From Polytrichum commune (taxonomy: Eukaryota > Streptophyta > Polytrichopsida > Polytrichales > Polytrichaceae): DNA of 64,000 nucleotides. This document shows, in pieces, positions 8,435 through 24,298 of this stretch (its first letter is position 1; every line of letters starts with the position of its first letter). Below the pieces are notes generated by a model, which saw only the letters and a list, made by a program, of their open reading frames with translations, did no database searches and was not told where the DNA came from. A program made the position numbers and the translations under genes. The stretch spans positions 68,362,033 through 68,426,032 of the forward strand of contig OX485804.1 in the NCBI GenBank assembly GCA_950295325.1. The letters run 5' to 3'.

Positions 8435-8461
8435 ATACACTACTACAAAACACGTCTTTTA
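8435..8461 (+). repeat. Element 1 target duplication and left TIR
   Basis: ATA (8,435-8,437) is followed by the 24-bp terminal inverted repeat beginning CACTACTACAAAACACG. It matches the right end base for base. Confidence 0.95.
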
Positions 8462-8807
8462 TTCCAACGCCCACTTCACTACATGTCTTTTACTACTATG
8501 AAGAGTGATTGGGGGAATGCACGAAATTCAATGGTGTTCATTCCATGTCCGAGTTTACTTTGAGGAGTCATGGTGCTGATGTGGGACAACAATTCAATTG
8601 GGAACGCACGTGTGAACGTGTTTGGGAACGCCAAATGGGACGTGCATTACTGTAGGTAGTGAAGTGGTCGATTTGGACAGATTGTCATATGTTTCAAGGA
8701 TTTAGAATGGGTACTCGCCAAAAAGGGGCGTCTATTTTTATAATTCATAATGGAATGTACATATTTATATAGAGTGAGGCATTTCTACATAACCAACATA
8801 ATCTAAT

Positions 8808-11800
8808 TTAATCTATTTGAACATCTCTATCTTCTTCAATTCCAAAGTCATCCTCGTCTTCAAATGGAGATTCGTGCTCATTTGTGTTCAAAGCTATAAC
8901 CATTTCGTTGCTGCTTAATACCACAACCTCATCCAATATTGGGTCAGTTGGTGTTGCATCATTCTCTAAAGATGCGGGCACCAAACCACAATGTTCTTCA
9001 ACGTTGCCTGGAGATAGGCAACCTATGTCCGGCATATAGTCTTTGTTGGAAACAACTCTTGCTCCTTTTGGCTCTTTCCGCAGAACCACCTTCCACCCAT
9101 GATTGTTCAAATCATTTGCAAAGAAAACTTGTTCAACATGGAGTGGAAATGCGAAAGATTCGGCTGATAATGGTACCAACCTATCAAAATTCACTAGGCT
9201 AAACCCATACTCATCTCGCTTCATGGTGGTATTGTGCCCAACCATATTTGCCATCACCCAATTACAATATAACACAACCAATTCATATCGACCATAGTTT
9301 ACGGCCAATATTTCCTCCACCCATCCCACATACTCCAAGTTCGCCGCCTTCATGTTCTTAGCACGTACATTTGATCGACAATTTTGGGAGAAGGTGGCGG
9401 CCACGCCACAGTCGCATGTTGTCAATGTCCCCTCTGCACTTCGCACACGGATATGGTTTCCAAAAGCATACATGGAGCGGTAAGATGTTGCTTGGCTAGA
9501 GGGTGGAAGAGATAAGACCAATATATCTTCATCAATCTCTTCTCCCGCCGCTTTTGCACGTGAAACCTCGGACTTGAACCAATTGTGAAAGGGCTCATCT
9601 TGGAAATTTTCGGGATAGACAATCCTGCCATTTCGTTTCTTCCTTCGATATTCTTCACGATCCAATTTGCGCTGTGTCATACTTGCGGTGTGTCGCCTGC
9701 AGAAAAACACAATATTGTGTTGTCTTTCAATTTCCAAAGGTTTTGTTAATATTACTTTACATAGTAAAGTAGATATCACGATTTCAAGTAATAAATATAT
9801 GTCATTTCCATATTTGTTTACTCTTGGCAGTTACAAATGCTTACTACATATAGTTATTGCCTAGTAAGACTAGTGACATTATAATGTGCATGCTACTAAC
9901 ATATCATTGTGCATGGAATATAATGTCACGGCCAGGAACATTGATCATGAAGTAACTTACTCTCTCCACGACTCCAAGGGGGCCACATTATTCACCACAA
10001 ATTCATGGATCCAGTCGCGTATCTTGGGGGTTAGTATCATTGGTCGCCCAACACCTTCCAATATTTCGTCGTTCATTGTAGGATCTTTTTTGTCGTCCCA
10101 TACCCTGCGACTTGTAATGGAATATGACGTCATGTACTCCGTGCAAAAGCCAAGCGCCTCATCTATGGCATATCCTTCGGCCATACTAGCTTCGGGTCTA
10201 TTGCGATTGCGAACATAGCCCTTCAATGTCTTCAAATACCTTTCCATAGGATACATCCAACGGACATGTATAGGCCCACAAATTTCCAATTCCTCAATCA
10301 AGTGCACCACAAGGTGCGTCATGACATCAAAAAATGCCGGTGGAAACTCTTTTTCAAGCATGCACAAGGTGATGGCCGTATCCTCTCTCAAGTCACTCAT
10401 TTCCAACGGATTGATGGTTTTAACGCATATCCGTTTGAATATGCGGCTTAATCTTATTATGCATATATGGACCTCTTTTCTCATGATTGTGCGTACACAA
10501 AGGGACAATATCTGTTGCATAAGGACATGGTAATCGTGGGATTTCAATCCTTTCAATGTCCCATCCACGTTCATTCTTTTCCGCAATTGGTCCACATAAT
10601 GGGTTGGAGTTTTCAATTGCCGCACAACATCCACAAATACCTCCTTTTCGTTCTTTGTGAGCACATATGGGGCTTGTGGTAAAGTGAGGCTTCCTAGTAT
10701 TCTCCCCGGTATGGGCCACAAATACGGCCGTATGTTGGCTTCCTGTAAATCCATGCGAACCTTGAGTATATCCTTCTCCTCAAATATGGTTTTCATAAGA
10801 CTTTCTGTTATGTTCTTCTCGCAGTGCATTACATCCAATGTATTGCGTATAAGAAGGCCCTGTTGGTGCACATAAAATTTGGGTAAGTACAGTGTCTATC
10901 AAATGCCATATAATAAACTGTTGCAAAGTGTTCAGACAATGGTTGTCCGATATGACTATACCATTACTTGAATAAGTATTGGATTATTAATGAAAATGCA
11001 TTTATAAGTGAACCCTTACTTCCTGCAGTCATTATGCATTACCTCTAACAGTAATGTGTGTTTACTTTTAATAGACAAGCATTACTTCCCACAGTAAAAT
11101 AAAAGTCGCTAGTGTGTACCTTCCAATATGGTAATGCAAAGAGTGCATTCTTTCTCTTCACTCCATGCTCGTGAATTGGATCTAATTTGTCTCCTTTTTT
11201 GTTTTCGGTTGAGCTTGCCAACCAATCTTCTCTTTGTTTTGTAAACCGCAAATGATCATGTGCAAATATTACCCGCGGGGGACCTCGGTGATCCTCCTCT
11301 CCATCAAAACTATTTTTTAATCGTCTATACGGATGGTGCATTGCCAAGTAATGACGATGACTGAGGTAAACGTTCTTCCCCAACAACTTGGACCTCCTCG
11401 TTGACACATGTGGCCCACATGGGGGACAACCCCTATACCCCTTTGTTACTTGTCTGGCAAGCAACCCATATGCCGGAAAGTCATGTATGCTCCACATAAG
11501 AATCGCACGAAGGTTCAAATTTGGGTTTGTGGAATAAATACTCCCCTCACTTGAACTCGCCTTCTCCAAAACAGATCCATCTGTTGTCATCACCCCTTTC
11601 CACAACCTTTGAAGCTCCTCTATGAGCGGTGCTAAATACACATGGATATTCTCCTCTTTCACACTTTCTTTTCCGGGAATGATTAGGGTTAACATCACAA
11701 AAAACCGTTTCGTAACTAGCCATGGTGGTAAATTGTAGTTTAACAATACCACTGGCCATGTTGAATGACTTAAAGATTGGTTAGAAAATGGATTGACACC

Positions 11801-14386
11801 ATCCAAAGCTAGTGCCAAACGTAGGTTTCTTGGCTCCTTCGCAAAGTCCGGCCACCTTGCGTCCACGTGTTTCCATGCCTTTGAATCCACTACCGATCTC
11901 ACTTTGTTGTCATTGCTTTTTCCCTCTACATGCCACGTCATAAGCTCGGCCAAACGTTTGCAACGGTACATTCGGAGCAACCGAGGTATAAGAGGAAAAT
12001 GTCGCAACACTTTCACTGGAATGCTATCACTACCGGGAATATACCGCGATTCTTTGCATTGGGGACACTCTTTTGCGTCCTTTAGTTCATTTCTAAACAA
12101 ACAATGGCCATTCTTGCACGCACGAATAGTGTTGTAGCTTAAACCTAACTTCCTCACCAATTTCTTGGCCTCGTAATGTGAAGGAGGGCAAGTGTTCTCT
12201 TTGGAAAGTAGATCATGTTTAAACAACTTCAACAACTCGTCCACACATGCATTTGGTACTCCAAAAATGTTGCATACATTGAGGAGCATTAGGATTGCTT
12301 GCAAGCGGTTGGTGGGGCTATCCTTGAAGAGCGGAGTTCTCGCTTCTTTCAATAAATCCTCCATACTATCGTCATTTCCTTCATTGCTCTCATCAAGTAA
12401 AGGTACTTCCATGTTGGCCATCTTGTCCTCGTCTTCTTGTCTTCCTTCGTCTTCTTCCTCAATGCCCTCATTGTGTGATGTGATGTTTGCGCGTGCGGGC
12501 AGTCCATCATACCTCTTGAAACACTCGTTCACCATCCGAACTACCTCCACTCCCTCCCTGCTATCTTGCATTGTTTCTGTATTTGTTTCCGGTAATATGT
12601 CTCCATCTACATCTCTTCCCGTATCATTGTTTGCTTCTACCGTCATGTAGCCCCCTTCTTGTGTCGCATTACATGTGCCACGATTAGCATTGTAGATGTC
12701 ATTGTTGACCTCCTGTATGTGCATCAACATACAAGAAACAATACATTTACTCTTAGTAACCCAATGTTAGACATGAAGAATCTAGTGGGTTAAACATTTG
12801 GCACATGTTCTCTTCTAGTCCTTTCACTTGCATTAAATTGATATTCACTACGACAAGTAATGCAAAACGCTACATCTTACTATCCAGCACAGGAAGCCTC
12901 CTGGTGTTGAACATGTATTTGCATCGGGAATAAGAAACCATTACATTTCGTGATTCAGAAACCTTGTATGTTTAGGACAAATCCAGGAGGAACCATTACT
13001 TTCACATTATTTCTTCTGGCACTTTCAACTTCACTCAATACTTGTTCACTGTGTCGAGTAATGCAAAATACTGCATCAAGTAAAGCTATCCAACACAACA
13101 TGCCTTATTACTTTCATCAGGTATGTGTGTCTACAATAAGATTGCATTGAAATAAGTAGTCACAGTAAACTTGTATAGTTATGAGAAATCCAGATGGTCA
13201 GTTTGTTTTCACATGTTCTCTTCTGGTCCTTTCAACTGCATTCAGTTGGGCTTCACTAGGTCAAGTAATGCAAGTTGATATTCAAATATGCAATGAAGTA
13301 CGTGAGCAACACATTTTAGAAAAAATAACACAAATTTAATTCACGGGGTAATATGCAAACAACTCTTCTCCTACTTCTATATCCCTTGATGCAATGGTCA
13401 TAACAAAACCCCATTCGTCATTGTTCCAAGGCTTTGGAAGCAAACTATACTCCCACACTACATTGGCGATTTCCTCTCGCCCTATGGAGCTGTTAATAAA
13501 ACCTGCAACATTGCCCCTCTCTACTCTCCCGTCGATGTAAATGTCATCCTCAACTTTAAAGACATAGCTTTTGAAGCGGGGTACAAGAGTTTTCATTTTC
13601 CGGTACTCTGATGTGGTGTACTGAGGCCCCACAAATGGTAAAAGGATATCGCCTGCTTTTGCGGGATCCATCGCAAATAAACCCCAGCCCATGAACGAAA
13701 ACTTAGAAATTTTCACTTCCCAATTTCTATCATGAAAAAAGAAAGTACTAAACTTTGGTATGGGACCATTACGCCACTGCCCATCGAATTGGTCAACCCT
13801 CCAATTCATCAATTTCAGCTCCTCATTAGTGTGAATTTTCTTTTCAGGTACAGGTGTTGTGGTTGTCATCTCTTTAAAAAACTCTTCCATAGCCGCCTTA
13901 GCTGCTTCTTCAACAAAAGGTCTTCTTTGTGCCTACACGAACGGATTCGTTATTACATCACTACGTGGAGTAATACCAGACTTGTATTACGAATATAAGC
14001 GTTACGACATCACTACGTGTAGTAATACGAGACTTGTATTATGAATGGAAGTGATATTACATCACTACTTGTAGTAATAACAAACATGTATTACGAGTGG
14101 AATCGTTCTTACATCACTACTTGTAGTAAAACTAAAGTGCCCCGATTCCAAAACAACATAATTCAATAAATGCAAATATAACTCTTACCAATATGGATTG
14201 TGTGAATGTGGGATCTCGCTTGTATCGACGAAGATGTTTCCGTATGGTTGCTCTAGACAATACCTTTCCCCCTGCACACATACTACAAGGACATCGGTAC
14301 TTTACCAATCTTCGTCTGTCTGCTTCTTTTTCTTCCATGTTCCATAGCTCCAAGTCCAAGACATCGCGCCTTGATGAACCCTCCAT
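8808..14386 (-). CDS. TNP2-family (TNPD-like) CACTA transposase, intact
   Basis: This is the catalytic transposase of element 1 and is expected to act in the nucleus, cutting and joining the element ends. I join four exons: 14,386-14,189, 12,712-11,120, 10,859-9,961 and 9,696-8,808. All donors are GT and all acceptors AG, phases agree (0, 0, 2), and the total is 1,193 codons including stop with no internal stop. Order of domains: transposase-associated Cys/His region in exon 1 (RCPCSMCAGG); an acidic linker; the TNP2 core with LALALDGVNPF, STWPVVLLNYNLPPW, MWSIHDFPAYG and a CPPCG motif; DVMHCEKN and the DUF4218-like part with HVRWMYPMERY; then a DUF4216-like C-terminus. The two Asp residues in DGVNPF and IHDFPAYG fit the CMC-superfamily DDE catalytic core. 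The donor after YWK is conserved in element 2. The SET exon lies in intron 1. Splicing is inferred, not observed. Confidence 0.9.
13336..13932 (-). CDS. SET-domain exon inside the transposase gene
   Basis: An open exon of 198 codons plus a stop lies in TNP2 intron 1 on the same strand. It follows a good acceptor (TCGTGTAG before GCACAAAG), and an internal ATG at 13,890 would give 184 aa alone. I see SET-domain landmarks: GWGLFA (cofactor GxG loop), GDILLPFVG, YIDGRVERGNVAGFINSS in place of the usual RFINHS, ANVVWEY, and a terminal IEVGEELFAYYPVN equivalent to GEEL..Y. SET domains methylate lysines using S-adenosylmethionine; activity here is not proven, and the NHS motif is altered to NSS. 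The acceptor is phase 0, matching the donor of TNP2 exon 1, so a 264-aa protein joining the transposase-associated domain to SET is possible. It could also be a separate gene using ATG 13,890. Element 2 has no counterpart. Confidence 0.75.
   Translation of the reverse strand, partial: AQRRPFVEEAAKAAMEEFFKEMTTTTPVPEKKIHTNEELKLMNWRVDQFDGQWRNGPIPKFSTFFFHDRNWEVKISKFSFMGWGLFAMDPAKAGDILLPFVGPQYTTSEYRKMKTLVPRFKSYVFKVEDDIYIDGRVERGNVAGFINSSIGREEIANVVWEYSLLPKPWNNDEWGFVMTIASRDIEVGEELFAYYPVN
13930..14135. repeat. Degenerate ~60-bp tandem array in TNP2 intron 1
   Basis: About three and a half units contain TACATCACTACTTGTAGTAA variants followed by CTTGTATTACGA. Each unit holds inverted TTAC/GTAA words around CACTAC. 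The array lies between the transposase-associated exon and the SET exon and belongs to the element-wide AGTAAT/TTACT motif family. Confidence 0.7.
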
Positions 14387-16207
14387 TTGTAACCTGTATT
14401 AAATCAAAGGAAATTTCGTTACTCCAAATGTACATAACTTTACTTGACGTAGTGAACACAATTACTTGAGGTAGTGAACAACTTTACTTGATGTAATGAA
14501 CTGCTTTACTTGATGTAATAATGTGCGCTACCACACATAGTGAACAACAATGAAATGCAGTTTAGAAGGGACGAAGATAACATGTGGGAAAAAATGACAA
14601 GGCTTGACATCTGGCCAACATGCCAATGTAATTAATCTTGAGGCATGAACTGAGTGTTTGTTAGGCAGTCCGGATATCCTAAGATGTGTCCCATTTTAGG
14701 CATATATATGGTTTTGGTAGATAGGATTAGGCTTCATGAACACTTGTGACCAACACACGTTATATTAGGGTCGCTTTATATTAGGGCCTATTTGGAGTTC
14801 GACCTATTTGGAGTTGAGCCCACTTGGATTTGATGTGGGCCTTAACTTTATTGTTACTTTACAAAGTGAGATGTTAACTTTGATCCACCTCAGATGGTGA
14901 GAAGACTAAGAGGATCTTATCCTGAAGGTGCCTACCTTTCTAGGAAATTAATTTTGTTGAGTGTCCAAAAAAAAAAACAACATTCAAAGAGTGCTAAAAT
15001 CACAATAATGCAAGTGATATTCACTGGAATCCAACAAAGATGAAATAAAGAAAACCATTCATGAATTATAGAAACGACTTGGATGAACGTCTAAATCATT
15101 ATAAATTACTTTTTGAATTTGCCCAATTTTAGACTATTATTATCCTAACTGATTATTACACTTTCATTACTCATTAGGCAAAAAGGTGCCCAAGCTGCTA
15201 GAGAGCTACGGTAAGTTAGTTGCTAATCGAAGCAAGCAAAGGATCATGTCGGGTAGCCCAGTGAGGGAGATACCCCACTGAAGCTCAACCCTAGTCTTCA
15301 ATGACGCCTCCCTCCTCGCCTCCCTCCCACGCCTCCCTCCTTTTTGAATCAGTGACGCCTCCGAGCTCACCTTCGCAGGTTGGAAGCTGGCTCTGTGTGG
15401 GATGTTGCCGGTGTTTCTGTGATCTGTCATTCCATATTGTAGAGGTGTGTTGCAACTGTAAGTTTTTCAAATGCTTCCATTAATTCCTTTCCGTTTTGAT
15501 GTTGGTGAACCACCCTATACCTAGATCTTGGATGAATGTCTTTCTTGCAGCCTTGAATGTTTCCTCGCTCACTAATGCACCTCCAACTGAGAACCACTCC
15601 GTTCATTCTCTTTCAAAAGCAAGTCCATGTTCTCTGTTTGTCGATCCTACCCATTTCTGTTCATTCTGGATCTCAATGTACCTCTAATGTCCGGATTCCT
15701 TGTTGTGGCAGGGATATCTGGATTTGTTGCTTTGTTACCTACATTGAAATCGGAACTCCCGATGTGCAGTTTCTGGTGGTCGGGTATGTGTCGGCCAACA
15801 CCTCCACTTCCGGCACCATTTATGAAGACGTCCTTTATTTCATGCCGGAGACAGGAGGCAACCCTGTCACCCTCCCTATCTATTTAGGGTGAGTATCTCC
15901 TTCTCATTATCATTGGCAATTCACGTAGATGCGGTTTCCAGCTTGGTGCACCTTCTTACACGCCCTTGTTGTCAAAGTTGCTAAATTTTGTCAAGTGCTT
16001 AGTATTTACTTGCCGTCCTTGTAAACAATTGCGTTCCTTGTAAACAACTATTTTTTTTTTTCCCGTTCCATGTCTCCAATGGACGCATGTGGTGTCAATC
16101 TGAGCTCTCAGAAAGTTCTTAATGCCATGCACGCTGATTTAGAGGAAGTGCGAGAACTAGCAATGACTAATTGAGCTGAACATGAATACGTCAATACGGC
16201 TCAATAG

Positions 16208-16400
16208 TTTTGTAGAGCAGGGTCTGGGGATATTTTTGGGCATAATTGGTCGAGATCCTAGTGTTTCCGAGTCCAACCGGTCACATGTTGACATCTTCCG
16301 GTTTTTCTTTATTAAATTGGGGATTGTCTATAAATTCCTGAAGCCTTGAATGCTAACCGGTTATTTCTCAAACTAGTTTATTTGTAACTAGCAATCGGTT
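16208..16400 (+). repeat. Dispersed repeat R2, copy 2 (inside element 1)
   Basis: Words in order match the other R2 copies: TTTTTGGGCATAATTGGTCG, AGATCCTAGTGTTTCCGAG, TCCAACCGGTCACATGTTG, then GGTTATTTCTCAAACTAG. Its presence inside the element shows an insertion into, or capture by, this CACTA lineage. Confidence 0.6.
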
Positions 16401-17300
16401 CATTGATCTAAAGCACTGGCCTGGAAATTGACTCTGTTAATCTGTCCGGACTGAATGAAGCAGGTTCTTCAATTTGTCTCTTCCTCATCATGTTATTGCA
16501 CGTTTCTCAGATCAAGTTTTACTCCACTTTTACAGGCAGATCATCTATACTACGTCACCTAGATTGCTAATCTCGTCAGTAGTGTCGATCGATTGTCATT
16601 TGAATTGACTTTTTGGTTTCTGTTCGGGGTTGGGCTCGCCGCAGATAAGGCCGACCTTTTCCCTTGGATCTTGTATTAGCCCACATGTTCATCTGCAAGT
16701 CTAGTTTGCAAACAGCTAGTTCGTTTCCACTTTGCGATTTGCTTCGGAAGAGGTGAATCAAGTGCAGGGTGGGAAGACTGCAGGAAGTCGTGGGCTGGAG
16801 TATGACAGGTGAGGCTAGGGGTGACGGATGAGTATTCGGATGGTGTTTCAGGAAGTTGTGTATGTGAGCTTGGGTTGAGTGGTCCTCAACAATATATGTA
16901 TGGTACCATAATCTTACAGTTTGCTGTCCGGGTGGGTAGACTGATTGGTTTCTTTGTATGTAGTGGTGGATTCAGGGATATGATGCGCCTCCCATTGTTT
17001 TCAACAAAAACCAAATTGAAAATCGAACCAACCCTAATTTAGTTGTGGTAATTCTCCTGTACTGTTTCCATCCCTTTTTTGCTTTGATTAGAGGTCCACA
17101 TTGTAGGCTTGATGCCTAAGGCCGTTATGAAAATCACCAGAGAAGTGTCATCTCTTGTTAGTAATATAGGATCTATCTGGTCATTTGGAATCAACGATCC
17201 TAAACTGCACTCTTTTAGTCTTGTACGATTATGTAATCTTCAGTTTGTTCTGACACATTTTTTTATAATAATTTCAGTTTGTAAGTAATTTGATTTTCAG

Positions 17301-17501
17301 TGGCATGGTTTGTGGAGTGCACTTCTGAATTTGAAGTATGCCAAGTATGGTCGCACTTCCAATAGTGCACGCCTTGCTTTGGAGCCTGTCAAGCTAATCC
17401 AAAGAGTGTGTAAAGATATCACTGATGCTTTGTTGTTTCAGAATCCACGCTTTTACATGCGAATTTTGAATAGCCACGTCTTAGGAATGGCAGTGCTTTG
17501 A
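17301..17501 (+). other. Possible captured exon, function unknown
   Basis: An open stretch follows a good acceptor (TGATTTTCAG at 17,291-17,300). The translation (HGLWSALLNLKYAKYG, then LEPVKLIQRVCKDITDALLF) reads like a helical region of a real protein, but I do not recognise the family. No neighbouring exon joins convincingly. It could be a host-gene fragment carried by the transposon or chance. Confidence 0.25.
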
Positions 17502-18551
17502 TACAATAACATGTTGGAGCCTGTGAATCTGATGTGGTAATTAACATAATAAGGTATGTGGGCTTATCATGGGGGTGACTTTCATTTTTGATCTCTAACC
17601 TATGTGTAGGTTTTTATTATGAGCAATCCAGACCTGGGTGTAACTGTTTTAATTTGTCATTTACAGCAACCTCAGCTTGTGGCCATTGTGACGCAATTTC
17701 TGGGCTTCCTGGAAGCTGTAAGGTCATTTTATACAGAGCCTAGAATAGTTATCATAGTTTGTGAAGGTACTTCTTTAACATCTAGGCAATGACATATTAT
17801 TTTTGATGGGCAATTAGAACTGTTTGTGATGGGCAATTAGAATTATTTTTGTGATCTGAAGGATCTCTCTCTCTCTCTCTCTCGCATGTAGATTTTGGTG
17901 TGCTGCCCCAAGGGAATGGAACAAGGTATGTAAGAGCAGAGAAGATGACATAAAATGTTTGCTTGTGTGTACACCCATGTTGGACTAGTATCGTCCCTTT
18001 CTTCTCTAATTCTTTTCATAACCATTCAGGTTTAATGTTAACTTAGCTTAATTTAACTTAGGTTAATGAACTTAGCTTAATGAACTTAGCTTAATTAACC
18101 TTATGATCAGCCTGCAAGTTTAAATTAGTTTCAGCTAGTTTTTCTTAACTTAGTTTAACTTACTAGCTTAATGAAGCTTAGTTAACATTCTAAACTCAGC
18201 TTAGTATACTTAGTGCTATGTTAACATAACTTAATGGTGGCAGCTGCTTCTCGTTTTTGACAATTTCTGGAGCTCATATGAAATGTCTAGAGAATTATCA
18301 AAGTGAAAGTGCTTCAGCAAAGTTAAATGGTCATATAGATCTTCCCCATTATGTTGGTTATTGACAGTAGCTCACTTAACAAATTTTGAGTGTGCAGTAC
18401 AATATTTTTTTTAAAACATGTCTTTTAAAATTATGCTCAATGGCTGATGCAAACAATTTTTATGTTTGGCCCCGTTCTTCAAATATAAAGTAGATATTAT
18501 TTTGTGTATTACCTTATTCCGGTCCTCCATCATATGTAGTGTACTTATTTT

Positions 18552-21500
18552 ATGGAAGTGGAGTCCGAATACGAGCGACAAAGGCGCTCTAGAATTGAAG
18601 CAAACAAAAGGAAGTTGGAATCACTGGGACTTATTGCATTGGCGGCTTCGGTGCAACCGGCAGCTATTTTGAAGAGGTAAACTTCCATTACTTGTTGATA
18701 TGCCTAAGATTGTAGTCTACTTTGAGAACTGTTTACACTGAAAATGTAAGAGCTTAATTTGGAACCCTCACCTTAGTTCATTTGTCGCAGCTATCCAACT
18801 GTCATCAGATTATTATGGAGATTAAGCTGAAATAATTACTTAGAGAAATAGCAGCATTGAGTGATGAAGACGTGAAGACTTTGTTTTTAGAGGTTCACAA
18901 ATTTTCCGCAATCAATTCGTCTTTGCTAGCCAAAATGCAAGATCTGCTTGCTAATACTTTCGAGGATGCCAGGACTACGGTCTCCGATTCCCTTCAACCA
19001 CCCAGGAGGAGCGCCAGGTTGTCAACTAAACCATTACTTTCAACGCATATAGAGGAAAATGAGAGTAGCAAGGAAGATGATGTGTCTAGTGAGCATAAAA
19101 TTGATAAGGACATAGACTATAGCGTAGAATAAGAAGAAGAAGAAGAAGAAGAAGAAGACCACCGAAAACCCATTGCAACCCAAGGCAAACCTGTAAGTAA
19201 TCTAATTCTCTGGCTGTAAGTGTTGTGGGTGTTGTAGTCATTTGAAATTGAATATCACTGCATGTAGTTGTGCACATTACTTTGTCCAGTTATATATTAC
19301 TAGACATAGTTGAACTTTACTAAGCAAATTACTGGAATAAGTAATGTGTGAAAATACTGTTTGGGTGTTTTGCAGAAAGACAATCCTAGAAGTTAGACTT
19401 TTAGGAAGAAGAAAATGACTTCACCTCGCAGAGGGAAGAGAAAACTATCTGTTGGAGAACCTGAAGGTTGGGAGGAACGTCGTGAGAATGAAGAGGATGG
19501 GGATGAGGACGAGGAAGAAGAAGAGTACGATTGGAGCAAGCCAATCTTGATGGAGGACGGGAGAGACTATATCCGGGCGTGAGGAAAGCAACCTCAGCGG
19601 GATGTTGTTAGCCCTCACAAGGATAGTAGTGCAGCCAAGCTGGCTTTAGAGATAGAAAAAAAAGCTGTTAATTATGAAACATGAGCTAGCATTAACATCA
19701 CGCCGCCACTCGGTGAGGGAGCATAGCAGCGACGAAGGAGAAGATGAAGACGAAGAAAAATGGGTTGCAATGCGGAGGACTTCTAATCGCAACTCGTAGA
19801 TGAAGGCGAAGAGGAGGGCAGCGAATAAAGCTTGCCGTGATGAATTCGAGGAGAGAGCAAGGGAGGGGAAGCCCAGATTCGTTGTCGATCTTGACGATAA
19901 TGGTAAACCATAGCCAACCCAATATTTTATCCAATGTTCCTTAGATGTATTCTTAGGCATCCAAATTTTAAGAACTATCGCTGCATAACTTGCTTCAACA
20001 AGTATATGACTCAACGCAATGATCTCCGTATGTTAAGTGTAAACATATTATGCATGCTATAAACATACGACTAAGTTGAGTCATCTGCATGTTACTCGTT
20101 ACAGTAACCGAACTCATTTGCACTCTATACACTTAGCGAAGTCGATATGTACCTCACTATTTGTAGTAATACGGGACCTTGTTGTCAACGTTACTTGCCA
20201 TAGCAAAGTATTCATCACTTCTAGAAGTAAGAGATATAACCCATTACTATATGTATTCACTCTTAGCAGTCGTAGTTGATTACTACGTAGAGTTAGTGCC
20301 TTCTACAATCTGTGACAATATTGCATGTATGCCCTTAACATATGACTATTGTTATTATTTGAAGGAGGTTTGTGACTTATTTGTATTGTTTTTTGTAGGC
20401 AATCCCAGCGGTGTGTATAGGCCGCAGTGGCTGAACGCGCTGAGAGGCTATTCCAACGATCTGGACTGGAGCGTGGACAACATAAACGATCAGTCCGAAA
20501 CGGCTCTGGACAACATATTCACGCGGATGAAGGAGAATTGGGAGTATCGCGGCTCTAGAGGAGAAACAAGAGTGTTGAGGTATGAAGTTTTCAAATCTAA
20601 CCTAGGTCAGCAGCTGAAAAGTAAGAGAGCGCAGATGAAGATGCGCATATCAAAAGGTTTAAGCAGACCTGAGTCTATTCGATTAGACCACTGGCTCCAC
20701 ATGGTTGAGCTGACACGCGATCCTCGCAAAATCGAGCAAGCGAATGTGATGCGGGAGGCGAGGAAGTGCGTGAAGAAGGTCTCTACATTTGGACGCTCCG
20801 AAGGGGAGGTCCGAGCCCGGCTGGTAAGCGGTCTTGAGTTATTATTGCAATTGATTGTAATATTTAAGTACCCTTGATTATAATTAGTGTTGTTACCACC
20901 CTATTGTTTACCGTGATGATAAGTGCTAGACATAAATGTGACCTCCAGATGCAAGCATAGTTGAAAACAAATATGGAGCTCAAAGTTTATGTTAAGTTGT
21001 AGGTTACTATGAACCTTTAACTATGTGAAGTTGTATGTTACTATGCGAAGTTTTATGTTACTATGTGAAGTTGTATGTTGCCATGTATTTGCAACTATGC
21101 GAAGTTATATGTTACTTTGCACCTATAACTATACACAGTAGACCTGACAATTAGGCTCCGGATGTTACTTTGTACAGTTAACCATCAGCGGGTAGAGCAC
21201 AGGTAGGTGTTCAATTTATCTGCCTGTGAGTATTTCATTAATGTTCTTGCAGGCATCCGAACTAAACAGGGATCCTCGGCAGGACGAGGTTGAGGTTGAA
21301 CTTGCCTCGAACAAGAATACCTCCAAGTCCAGAGGCGGCCGACCAATGAGTTCCAGTATGTTGAGGGGGGGAGTCAGTGACGCCTAGTATGAGTGCGGGT
21401 TTGGAATATCGCCGCACGTAAGTCGCACGAGGGATGAGGGAATGGATGAGAGGAGGGCAAAAGTAGACCTTAAATTTAATGCCCTAGAAAACAAATTTAA

Positions 21501-23147
21501 TGCAATGCAGAGCTCAATTGAATTGGTGATGGCCAAGCTTGGCATCACAGTTCCAGTAATGGCCAGCGCTCCCTCGGTTGGAGAGAAACCTTTAAGTGAT
21601 CACAAAGGGAGATCAGACTCACGTAGGAGTGTATCACCTCCCGCACGCTCTCAGTCGAAGGAGCCACTAAGCAAGGCCTTGGACTTTGGCAGTGCAGGGG
21701 AGAAGGTCACCTCACTAAGCCCAGAGATCCCCTGCGGCTCGCAAAAAGCCTCCTCCACGCATGAAGAGGTTGAACATGTATGAGGTTTGAATTGGTTCGG
21801 TTGGAAAGCTTTGGCATCTAGAAAATATGTTCATATTACGCAAATCCATCATTGTCAAATTTCGGAAACCTCATGTGTAATAGTTTAGTTTTCTCTAGCT
21901 TAATGTTGGGCTTTAATGTGCTAGTTGTTTGTTTCTGGTTGAAGGCACCGGAAATTTCCAGTGGGGGCGTTCAGTCCGTTGTCTAGCCAACAACAAATGA
22001 CAGTGGAAAACGGGAGAGGGGACCCAAGACGAAGCGTATTCGACTCAGCGAAGGACAGAAACTGACGCTGGAGGCCGGTGCACTGTTACCTAAAGGTAGC
22101 ATTTTTATTGTGATCTATGTTTATGCAGCTAGTAAAGTCTAACAACTGCAGTGAGTAAAGTCTAACTGCACCTAGTAAAGTCTAACAACTGCACCTAGTA
22201 AAGTCTAACAACTGCACCTAGTAAAGTCTAACACCTGCAACTAGTAAAGTCTAACTGCAACTAGTAAAGTTTAGCTGCAACTAGTAAAGTCTTGCTGCAA
22301 CTAGTAAAGTCTAACTGGAACTAGAGAACCCTTACATAACTATAGCTAGTAAAGTCTAAATGTATCCAGTATGAGATAATGCTCATTTTAACTGTCTCTA
22401 TTTACTACCAACACTCAATGAGGCTTACTACCATAAGTAAGATGAAAGCCAATTCATGTGAACTCATTTTCCATTGATCGATCTGTGAATGTAATGCAAT
22501 TGTGAACTTTACCCGGACATTACCAAAACTCAACCGGTCCATTTGTCTAACTCTCCACTCTCCCGGACCATATTGCACATTGCAGAGAAATCCAGGGGCA
22601 TCCCATTAAAAAAGGGCTCGAAGAAAACGGACAAAGAAGGAGAGAAAGAAATGGCGGATAAGCGTAGGGGAGACAAACCTCCCCTTGGCACAAAGGCTCC
22701 AAAGAAGACCCACCCTATTCATGATTTGGTGAGCATTCGGTCCAACTACTTAAGACTAGTAGCTAAGTGCAAGTAAGCACATTAATTCAAGTTTCTACTT
22801 CATTATGGATTTAAGAAGCAATTTGTTTATTTAATTTGGCTGAAATAATCGTGGGATTTGTGCAGACTAAGGGGGACGAGGTTTACTTGTGTGGGTATGA
22901 TTTGGAGGAGTCGAAGGCGAAGTTCGTTGGGAAGGGTGTTATTCAGCATATAGCAAGTGGAATGTTGCACGGGAAGGTGATTGGCAATGGCTATGTATCA
23001 TTGGCCATCACGGAGTCACTTGAAGACGACTATCCTTTGCTTGAACCTCTCAGTGGAGACGACCCTCCAGTGACTACTATTGGCAAAGCGAAGGGCCATT
23101 ACATTCTTTGGTCAAGCGAATGTGTAAAGCCATGTGCGGCTACGTGA
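18552..23147 (+). pseudogene. TNPA-like accessory gene of element 1, disabled
   Basis: TNPA-type proteins bind subterminal motifs and help the transposase. Eight exons can be followed: 18,552-18,676, 18,844-19,192, 19,376-19,902, 20,399-20,823, 21,253-21,777, 21,945-22,095, 22,586-22,728 and 22,866-23,147. The start encodes a charged segment with YERQRRSRIEANKRKLESLG. Acidic and basic regions follow, then the Ptta/En/Spm transposase_24-like region (RFVVDLDDNG joined to NPSGVYRPQWLNALRGY, ending near ARKCVKKVSTFGRSEGEVRARL), a coiled coil near 21,442-21,540, and a DUF8039-like C-terminus (VIQHIASGMLHGKVIGNGYV, TTIGKAKGHYILW). Lesions: TAA 19,130, TAG 19,394, TGA 19,580, a +1 frameshift in the A8 run at about 19,658-19,665, TAG 19,797, TAG 21,385 and TAG 21,984. 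Removing one base restores a total length divisible by three. Some lesions could be avoided by different splicing, but not all. Confidence 0.8.
22125..22350 (+). repeat. Short tandem array CTAGTAAAGTCTAAC in an intron
   Basis: About ten units of 16-21 bp share CTAGTAAAGTCTAA with CTGCAAC or CTGCACC spacers. The array lies between two exons of the TNPA-like gene and carries the AGTAA word typical of this element. Confidence 0.85.
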
Positions 23148-24271
23148 GTGTGGAGTGGATTTGTAGACCTAGGTTGATTTGCAGACATTTGGAGTTCAGT
23201 GTTTAATATTGTTAGAACCAAATTGTGAAACATTCATGACACAATATTGGATAAATATGATTTGGTTTTTAGCAATGGCTACATTTGGCAATGGCGACAT
23301 TTGGTACATGTCACAAATTTATAACTATGTTGAGTTAGCCCCATGTTACTAGTTGCTGTAAATGCGCACAGTTGCATCCTAATCACGGCACTTAGCGCAG
23401 TCGATATTCACTGTAATACCAGTAATATACATTAAAGACATGTGAAGACCACATAACCTCACAACGAACACAAAATACTAGAGTTTGTTGTCTATATTAC
23501 GTTACATAGTAATATAGATATCACTACTATAAGTAACAAATATATGCCATCTAAATATGTATTCACTCTTGGTAGTCACAGACACTTACTACGTACAGTT
23601 ACACAGACACTTGGCAAGGACATGAATACTTCACTGGTAGTAATACACAAAAAGACATCCGTGAACCACATGACCTAACAACGTAGGCCATAGACCACTG
23701 CTTGAGGTAAACATCACTCCAGCCAGTGAAGTTCACATGACGACGTGGAGTAAGAAATTATGCAGTTGTTGTATGTATTTACTACCAAAAGTCAAAGATG
23801 TTAACTACGCAACGTTATTCACTACCCACTTGGTTGTCCGCGATTACTGGAATAAGTAATGTGTGAAAATTAATTCAATTAATCTTAGCCACGTGGTTAC
23901 ATATTTGTTTCAACCACGTTGTTATGGTTCACTAGTAATTTGGAATGTATGTATACGTATTTTACTTTGTATTACTCTGTGTAGTGAAGTAAAAAAACCC
24001 GACCATGACTAGTGGCAGTGACATTATATCTCTTCGATGAGTTATATTGACGTGTGTCATATCTTACTTATATTGCCAAAACATAGTGAAATAGGACATG
24101 ACTCTATGAAGTAAAGCACGCGGAGCTAGTCCAACTTCACTGCCATTGGGAACGTATCCATTGGGAACATCCTGTCCGATACTCCTTTACTGCTTGTCCG
24201 GAGCGACTGGTCGTTTTCCACGTTAGTAAAGTCTGGATTTTTTCACTCGTAGGAGTTAAAAAACCCAGTTG
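23148..24271. other. Right subterminal region of element 1
   Basis: No gene. The region holds many AGTAAT, GTTACT, TTACTAC and ACGTAGTAA words on both strands. One segment, TACTGGAATAAGTAATGTGT, also occurs at about 19,331 in an intron. In well-studied CACTA elements, such subterminal motif arrays are the binding sites for TNPA; that role is inferred here. Confidence 0.6.
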
Positions 24272-24298
24272 TAAAAGACGTGTTTTGTAGTAGTGATA
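24272..24298 (-). repeat. Element 1 right TIR and target duplication
   Basis: The last 24 bases of the element are the exact reverse complement of the left end and are followed by ATA. Confidence 0.95.

Follow-up and report, generated by a model that had tools for sequence, protein, structure and literature searches.

Among the closest described systems are the HarbingerS elements, reportedly described by Kojima and Jurka in 2014. HarbingerS and MuDR elements of Phytophthora (oomycetes) carry SET histone-methyltransferase genes, and are like the element described here in being DNA transposons with a SET gene of this kind; they differ in superfamily and host, and the accessible sections of the source mention no exon shared with the transposase (PMC12730594). 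Phytophthora also harbours proto-Helentron-Pi, whose SET ORF of ~153 aa has been likened to Clr4. That element is a rolling-circle transposon with a separate, intronless SET ORF according to the available text (PMC4067079), whereas the present domain is a spliced CACTA exon that is nearest to Set1/MLL in the PDB. In maize En/Spm, tnpA and tnpD are produced from one gene by alternative splicing, and TnpA is linked to demethylation of the element; there the tnpD ORF lies inside intron 1 and the available portions of the sources leave a SET domain unmentioned (PMC2613891, PMC10398659), whereas here a SET exon stands between a transposase-associated (TPA) exon and the TNP2 core exon. VANC proteins of VANDAL elements are anti-silencing proteins that act on the chromatin of their own element (PMC10398659). 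For VANC this function has been shown and the term 'SET domain' occurs 0 times in the accessible text, whereas we only infer the same role here. CACTA clade gamma gained an N-terminal first intron that is clade-specific, in a study of CACTA exon structure whose accessible text again uses 'SET domain' 0 times (PMC4158355). Transposon-borne SET proteins are already known from oomycetes; a search of open-access papers (Repbase reports, bioRxiv-only preprints and subscription papers aside) brought up no plant CACTA element that carries one.

The window, which is the whole 64,000-nucleotide stretch of Polytrichum commune DNA that was analysed (contig positions 68362033-68426032), holds a CACTA element with the features collected in Table 1. 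Its transposase exons match the Pfam families PF02992 (TNP2; E = 7.5e-65), DUF4218 (E = 1.1e-36) and DUF4216 (E = 9.8e-8). Beyond these three, no transposase family was matched at E ≤ 1 in Pfam, and a Harbinger-type transposase was not found in the element. The original prediction, made from the sequence of the window, described a 198-codon SET-like exon with its own stop, lying in TNP2 intron 1 on the same strand as the transposase, and a first exon ending in phase 0 at 14,189 that could be joined to either of two phase-0 acceptors, at 13,932 and 12,712. All of these features are borne out, the SET assignment by a Pfam match and by a fold match to MLL1, and the 3′ end of the TPA exon reads ATATTG/gtaaga, in phase 0. 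Joining the exons also reproduced the two predicted product lengths, 264 aa for TPA plus SET and 1,192 aa for TPA plus the exon beginning at 12712 and the later exons.

Table 1 Features of the CACTA element and its genes in the window
Feature	Position	Strand	Remarks
Whole CACTA element	8438..24295	.	TIR CACTACTACAAAACACG at both ends; 15.9 kb
Target-site duplication ATA, left	8435..8437	.	
Target-site duplication ATA, right	24296..24298	.	
Exon 1, transposase-associated (TPA), 66 codons, phase-0 end	14189..14386	-	
TPA-SET intron, 256 nt in the window copy	13933..14188	-	
SET exon, 198 codons + TAA, phase-0 acceptor	13336..13932	-	Pfam SET E = 1.2e-11
TNP2 core exon, phase-0 acceptor competing with the SET acceptor	11120..12712	-	
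Transposase exon with DUF4218	9961..10859	-	
Last transposase exon, with DUF4216	8808..9696	-	
Divergent second gene, part	20170..20877	+	without Pfam name

The TPA exon of the window matches Pfam Transpos_assoc at E = 0.00049, and its 20.6 bits fall under the curated cut-off of 27.7, as do the scores of all TPA exons scanned (7/7). One subfamily-B TPA exon (L025:1208-1402) scored 23.3 for U-box against a cut-off of 21.4, and 21.4 for Transpos_assoc against 27.7; the U-box score is probably a weak cross-match. Exact TIRs flank the SET exon in 11 subfamily-A copies, namely the window element and 10 more, and identical 3-bp target-site duplications were found in 10 of the 11 SET-bearing elements checked (for L005, L006 and L010, in which an inner TIR is also present, the outer TIR pair was taken). 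TIRs on both sides, together with identical duplications in 10/11 copies, indicate that the SET-bearing copies are separate insertions.

The same exon recurs throughout the genome. A tblastn search of 408 Mb in 64 contigs with the SET exon, of which the best 150 of 212 candidates were merged, gave at least 137 loci. The companion searches, for TPA and TNP2, covered the best 150 of 643 candidates in one case and the best 150 of 434 in the other; the resulting co-location counts are lower bounds, and 'SET-less' denotes a locus with no SET among the matches listed. A same-strand TPA lies no more than 2.5 kb upstream in at least 99 of the 137 SET loci, TNP2 lies within 6 kb downstream in at least 73, and both are present in at least 65. 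Among the matches listed, no SET locus (0/137) has TPA or TNP2 on the opposite strand within 6 kb. Viewed from the transposase, 73 of the best 150 TNP2 matches have SET upstream and 77 have no SET within 6 kb upstream among the matches listed, so many relatives can do without the exon. L038-L041 were scored as SET-less from the SET match list, and the stretches fetched for them may stop short of the exon site. Among TPA loci, at least 52 of the 99 with SET and at least 33 of the 51 SET-less ones have a relative of the second gene in the 15 kb upstream (best 150 of 380 candidates, with 117 of those 150 rows entered in the co-location count). Because the second gene accompanies both kinds of locus alike, the SET protein seems to have been added to the usual pair of genes and not to replace the second one.

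The order TPA, SET, TNP2 is kept in subfamilies A (that of the window), B, C and D, the last three being 53-55%, 43-48% and 47-49% identical to the window SET protein, respectively. Exceptions include L023 and L061, where TPA was not found, and L024, L050 and L063, where TNP2 was not found. A further group of decayed relatives (L075-L081) retains SET matches that are 25-48% identical over parts, with TPA upstream in the six where it was detected. Among 63 copies examined, the SET exon is intact in 42 and not intact in 21. A profile scan of viral and genome contig collections with the SET alignment found no relative. We note that in L037, a SET-less copy, a stretch of ~0.8 kb (L037:871-1690) splits the TNP2 exon and itself shows weak similarity to SET (31% over 48 aa, E = 0.008).

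The SET exon is an old second exon, common to at least four subfamilies and missing from other relatives. The original prediction of a captured exon holds in that a SET exon does lie inside a CACTA gene, but the exon is not peculiar to one element. A quick TNP2 tree of 47 rows requires four changes of SET label (before the trees were built, near-identical rows were dropped, 14/61 for TNP2 and 13/42 for SET). Under a midpoint root, the SET-bearing rows and nine SET-less rows fall together and the SET-less L038 and L039 lie outside. A single gain with repeated loss would fit this tree, in which gain and loss are not separable, several deep nodes are weak and long branches come together. L032, sister to subfamily D in the TNP2 tree, resembles the D exon over its first 23 residues, in a stretch ~90 nt past the donor of L032 (39% identity, E = 0.044). 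A SET remnant at this place would fit loss; the match is weak and rests on position more than on score, and the same search gave wrong-strand matches in L040 (E = 0.029) and L034 (E = 0.066). The subfamilies branch in a different order in the SET tree than in the TNP2 tree, the disagreements falling on weak or long branches. When the SET copies of the elements are placed in one tree with four further SET stretches of this genome, they form one side.

The exon scores 45.3 bits against Pfam SET (PF00856), with a curated cut-off of 22.4, and all 17 members of a representative alignment (alignment A1) match this family at E up to 0.01. Pfam Ntox17 was also matched in 1/17 members (E = 0.0009; E = 0.041 and below the cut-off in the window member), which is taken as chance. 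A sequence search of the PDB ranked H3K4-specific Set1 chains from COMPASS structures first, followed by EZH2 and ASH1L, and a profile search returned Set1, ASH1L and MLL1 chains, with EZH2 weaker. A first AlphaFold model was too weak for use (mean pLDDT 49.2); a second, from an alignment that also took in these four further SET stretches, reached a mean pLDDT of 61.9. Foldseek comparison of this second model with the PDB gave the MLL1 SET domain as the best of 275 matches at E ≤ 0.001 (E = 1.1e-6), with COMPASS and SET8 structures also matched. The model further matches viral SET proteins. Specificity is not readable from the fold; nearness to Set1/MLL would fit an activating mark. The exon encodes a relative of protein methyltransferases, whose substrates include histones, so the element may have the means to edit chromatin marks itself.

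Whether such a domain would transfer methyl groups bears on the likeliest alternative, a pseudo-enzyme in which a SET fold without methyl transfer would serve, in fusion with TPA, to bind proteins or histones. N-H-S is a SET-domain motif, and post-SET cysteines are a feature of histone lysine methyltransferases, though some SET enzymes go without them. The NHS motif is incomplete here, with Asn kept in 17/17 members and His replaced by Ser in 16/17 and by Asn in 1/17. Post-SET cysteines are absent from the 17-member alignment, where the exon stops 3 to about 8 residues past the catalytic Tyr, and Val or Leu stands two residues past that Tyr. These three departures favour a pseudo-enzyme. However, all 17 members, which are 43-89% identical to that of the window, carry GxG, both the central and the catalytic Tyr, the NHS Asn and the Asp without exception. 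The catalytic Tyr, GxG, Asp and Asn positions are common to the four other SET stretches, with the GxG and catalytic Tyr columns invariant across both sets, and no other long part of the exon is as constrained as the SET core (omega 0.10-0.20). With this conservation set against the missing features, we regard a pseudo-enzyme as unlikely, though far from negligible.

Splice sites and phase are conserved in most copies. At the SET acceptor, 54/63 copies have the AG in precise register, and 59/63 have it if it may stand up to 12 nt off in frame; of the 60 copies in which the TPA donor was measurable, 52 have GT. The eight non-GT donors belong to L022 and L066, in which a small gap shifts the reading, and to six decayed copies. 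In the six measurable copies of L075-L081 the donor position reads AT or AA, which is either a shared change or a misplaced donor. The TPA-SET intron spans 88-127 nt in 55 of 60 measured copies, 256 nt in three (the window copy and its two nearest relatives, L002 and L003) and >1 kb in two. Intron 1 of the window owes its length to a tandem array of a 52-nt unit (×3.7, at 13937-14129), which expands it. The two long introns, 1.1 and 1.5 kb in the SET-bearing L060 and L079, possibly reflect later insertions. The TNP2 acceptor AG is present at phase 0 in 10/10 copies of subfamily B, 6/7 of C and 2/2 of C2, and in subfamily D the AG is at the expected place in only 1/3 (L061).

The second acceptor bears on another scheme, in which TPA-SET would be the sole spliced product of exon 1 and TNP2 would have a start or promoter of its own, lying between SET and TNP2. 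Of the two acceptors, that of SET is the nearer, and the window copy has, by eye, an in-frame ATG just ahead of the TNP2 acceptor, both of which suit this scheme. Against it, 23/24 copies of subfamily A retain an AG in phase 0 at the TNP2 acceptor, even though the codon at the acceptor is a stop in L019-L023; that stop indicates that the AG is kept there as a splice site and not as coding sequence. SET-less relatives such as L033, read by eye, also appear to join the homologous TPA exon to TNP2 in the same phase 0. We therefore consider the absence of a splice choice improbable, and infer that both splice forms are used. A three-part TPA-SET-TNP2 product, fused by way of the GTGAAT at the stop of SET, was rejected, as subfamily B is, by eye, without Val-Asn codons at that place.

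How translation enters the SET exon can be approached through its first Met, which among the 42 intact exons is residue 15 in A1-A3, 42 in A4 (5/5), 24-29 in B (12/12), 11 in C, 1 or 5 in C2, and 75 and 84 in the two intact D copies. Q52, W53, I58, P59, R69 and W71 are invariant in 17/17 SET members, D included, and conserved residues ahead of a late first Met in A4 and D mean that the SET exon is probably spliced to an upstream exon. Translation from an upstream exon is the simplest reading. The rival is an independent gene nested in the intron, in which the SET ORF would have a promoter and a start codon to itself; its own stop and the early Met of A1-A3, C and C2 can be cited in favour. It is very improbable, given that an early Met is absent in A4, B and D, that codons 1-14 are conserved between the A groups and that the acceptor stands in register across most copies.

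The SET exon is under purifying selection. A codon model for the 42 intact copies, sampled from 63 loci, gave omega (dN/dS) 0.305, with lnL -5367.9 versus -5478.4 at omega 1, a cost of 110.5 log units (2 × ΔlnL = 221). Between groups A1 and A4, omega is 0.171 for SET, 0.177 for TPA and 0.235 for TNP2. Constraint varies along the exon: in comparisons of A1-A3 with A4, codons 1-14 gave omega 0.09, 0.17 and 0.15, codons 15-59 were nearly relaxed (0.65-0.72) and codons 60 to the end gave 0.10-0.14. The corresponding values for C versus C2 are 0.52 (few sites), 0.47 and 0.20. Among the close A groups, omega for SET is 0.336 (A1-A2), 0.409 (A1-A3) and 0.609 (A2-A3), and for TNP2 it is 0.294, 0.399 and 0.376, respectively. 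Within young groups, omega for SET rises to 0.92 (within C) and 1.3 (a single C2 pair), as expected because copies decay after insertion. Although 21/63 copies are not intact, a chance passenger fragment in neutral decay is ruled out for practical purposes by the omega of 0.305 and its likelihood margin over neutrality together with the conserved order and splice sites, and a chance ORF is rejected likewise by the Pfam SET match, the number of loci and the same omega. Neither of the two sequence checks set out with the original prediction, a SET profile match and the presence and constraint of the exon in other copies, tells against it.

We propose that, in one large CACTA lineage, the transposase gene has in the SET exon an alternative terminal exon that is old and under selection, and that TPA-SET is likeliest a protein-lysine methyltransferase, or a SET-fold binder, that alters the chromatin of the element, a reading that we place midway between doubtful and probable. 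One first exon, TPA, would serve two proteins by way of one donor with two phase-0 acceptors. Splicing of TPA to the near SET acceptor, in a transcript ending in the SET-TNP2 gap, would yield the TPA-SET protein, and skipping of SET, with TPA joined to the TNP2 acceptor, would yield a transposase with the same N-terminus. The shared TPA domain, which we assume to bind DNA, would bring TPA-SET to the element or to the transposition complex, where the SET domain would methylate chromatin or a transposase lysine. Local chromatin might in this way be shifted in favour of the element, an effect that VANC and Spm TnpA bring about differently. A more specific claim, that a CACTA lineage encodes an active, element-targeted chromatin methyltransferase as an alternative terminal exon sharing its targeting N-terminus with the transposase, is advanced tentatively, as possible but not yet probable. 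If it is true, one splice decision would set the balance between opening the chromatin of the element and moving the element.

The family offers a testable system, with at least 137 loci, intact SET exons in 42 of the 63 copies examined and SET-less relatives as natural controls. Plant transposons counter silencing by element-encoded factors such as TnpA and VANC, and the conserved CACTA SET domain is a candidate for a chromatin writer owned by a transposon, one that would be tied to transposition by a single splice choice.
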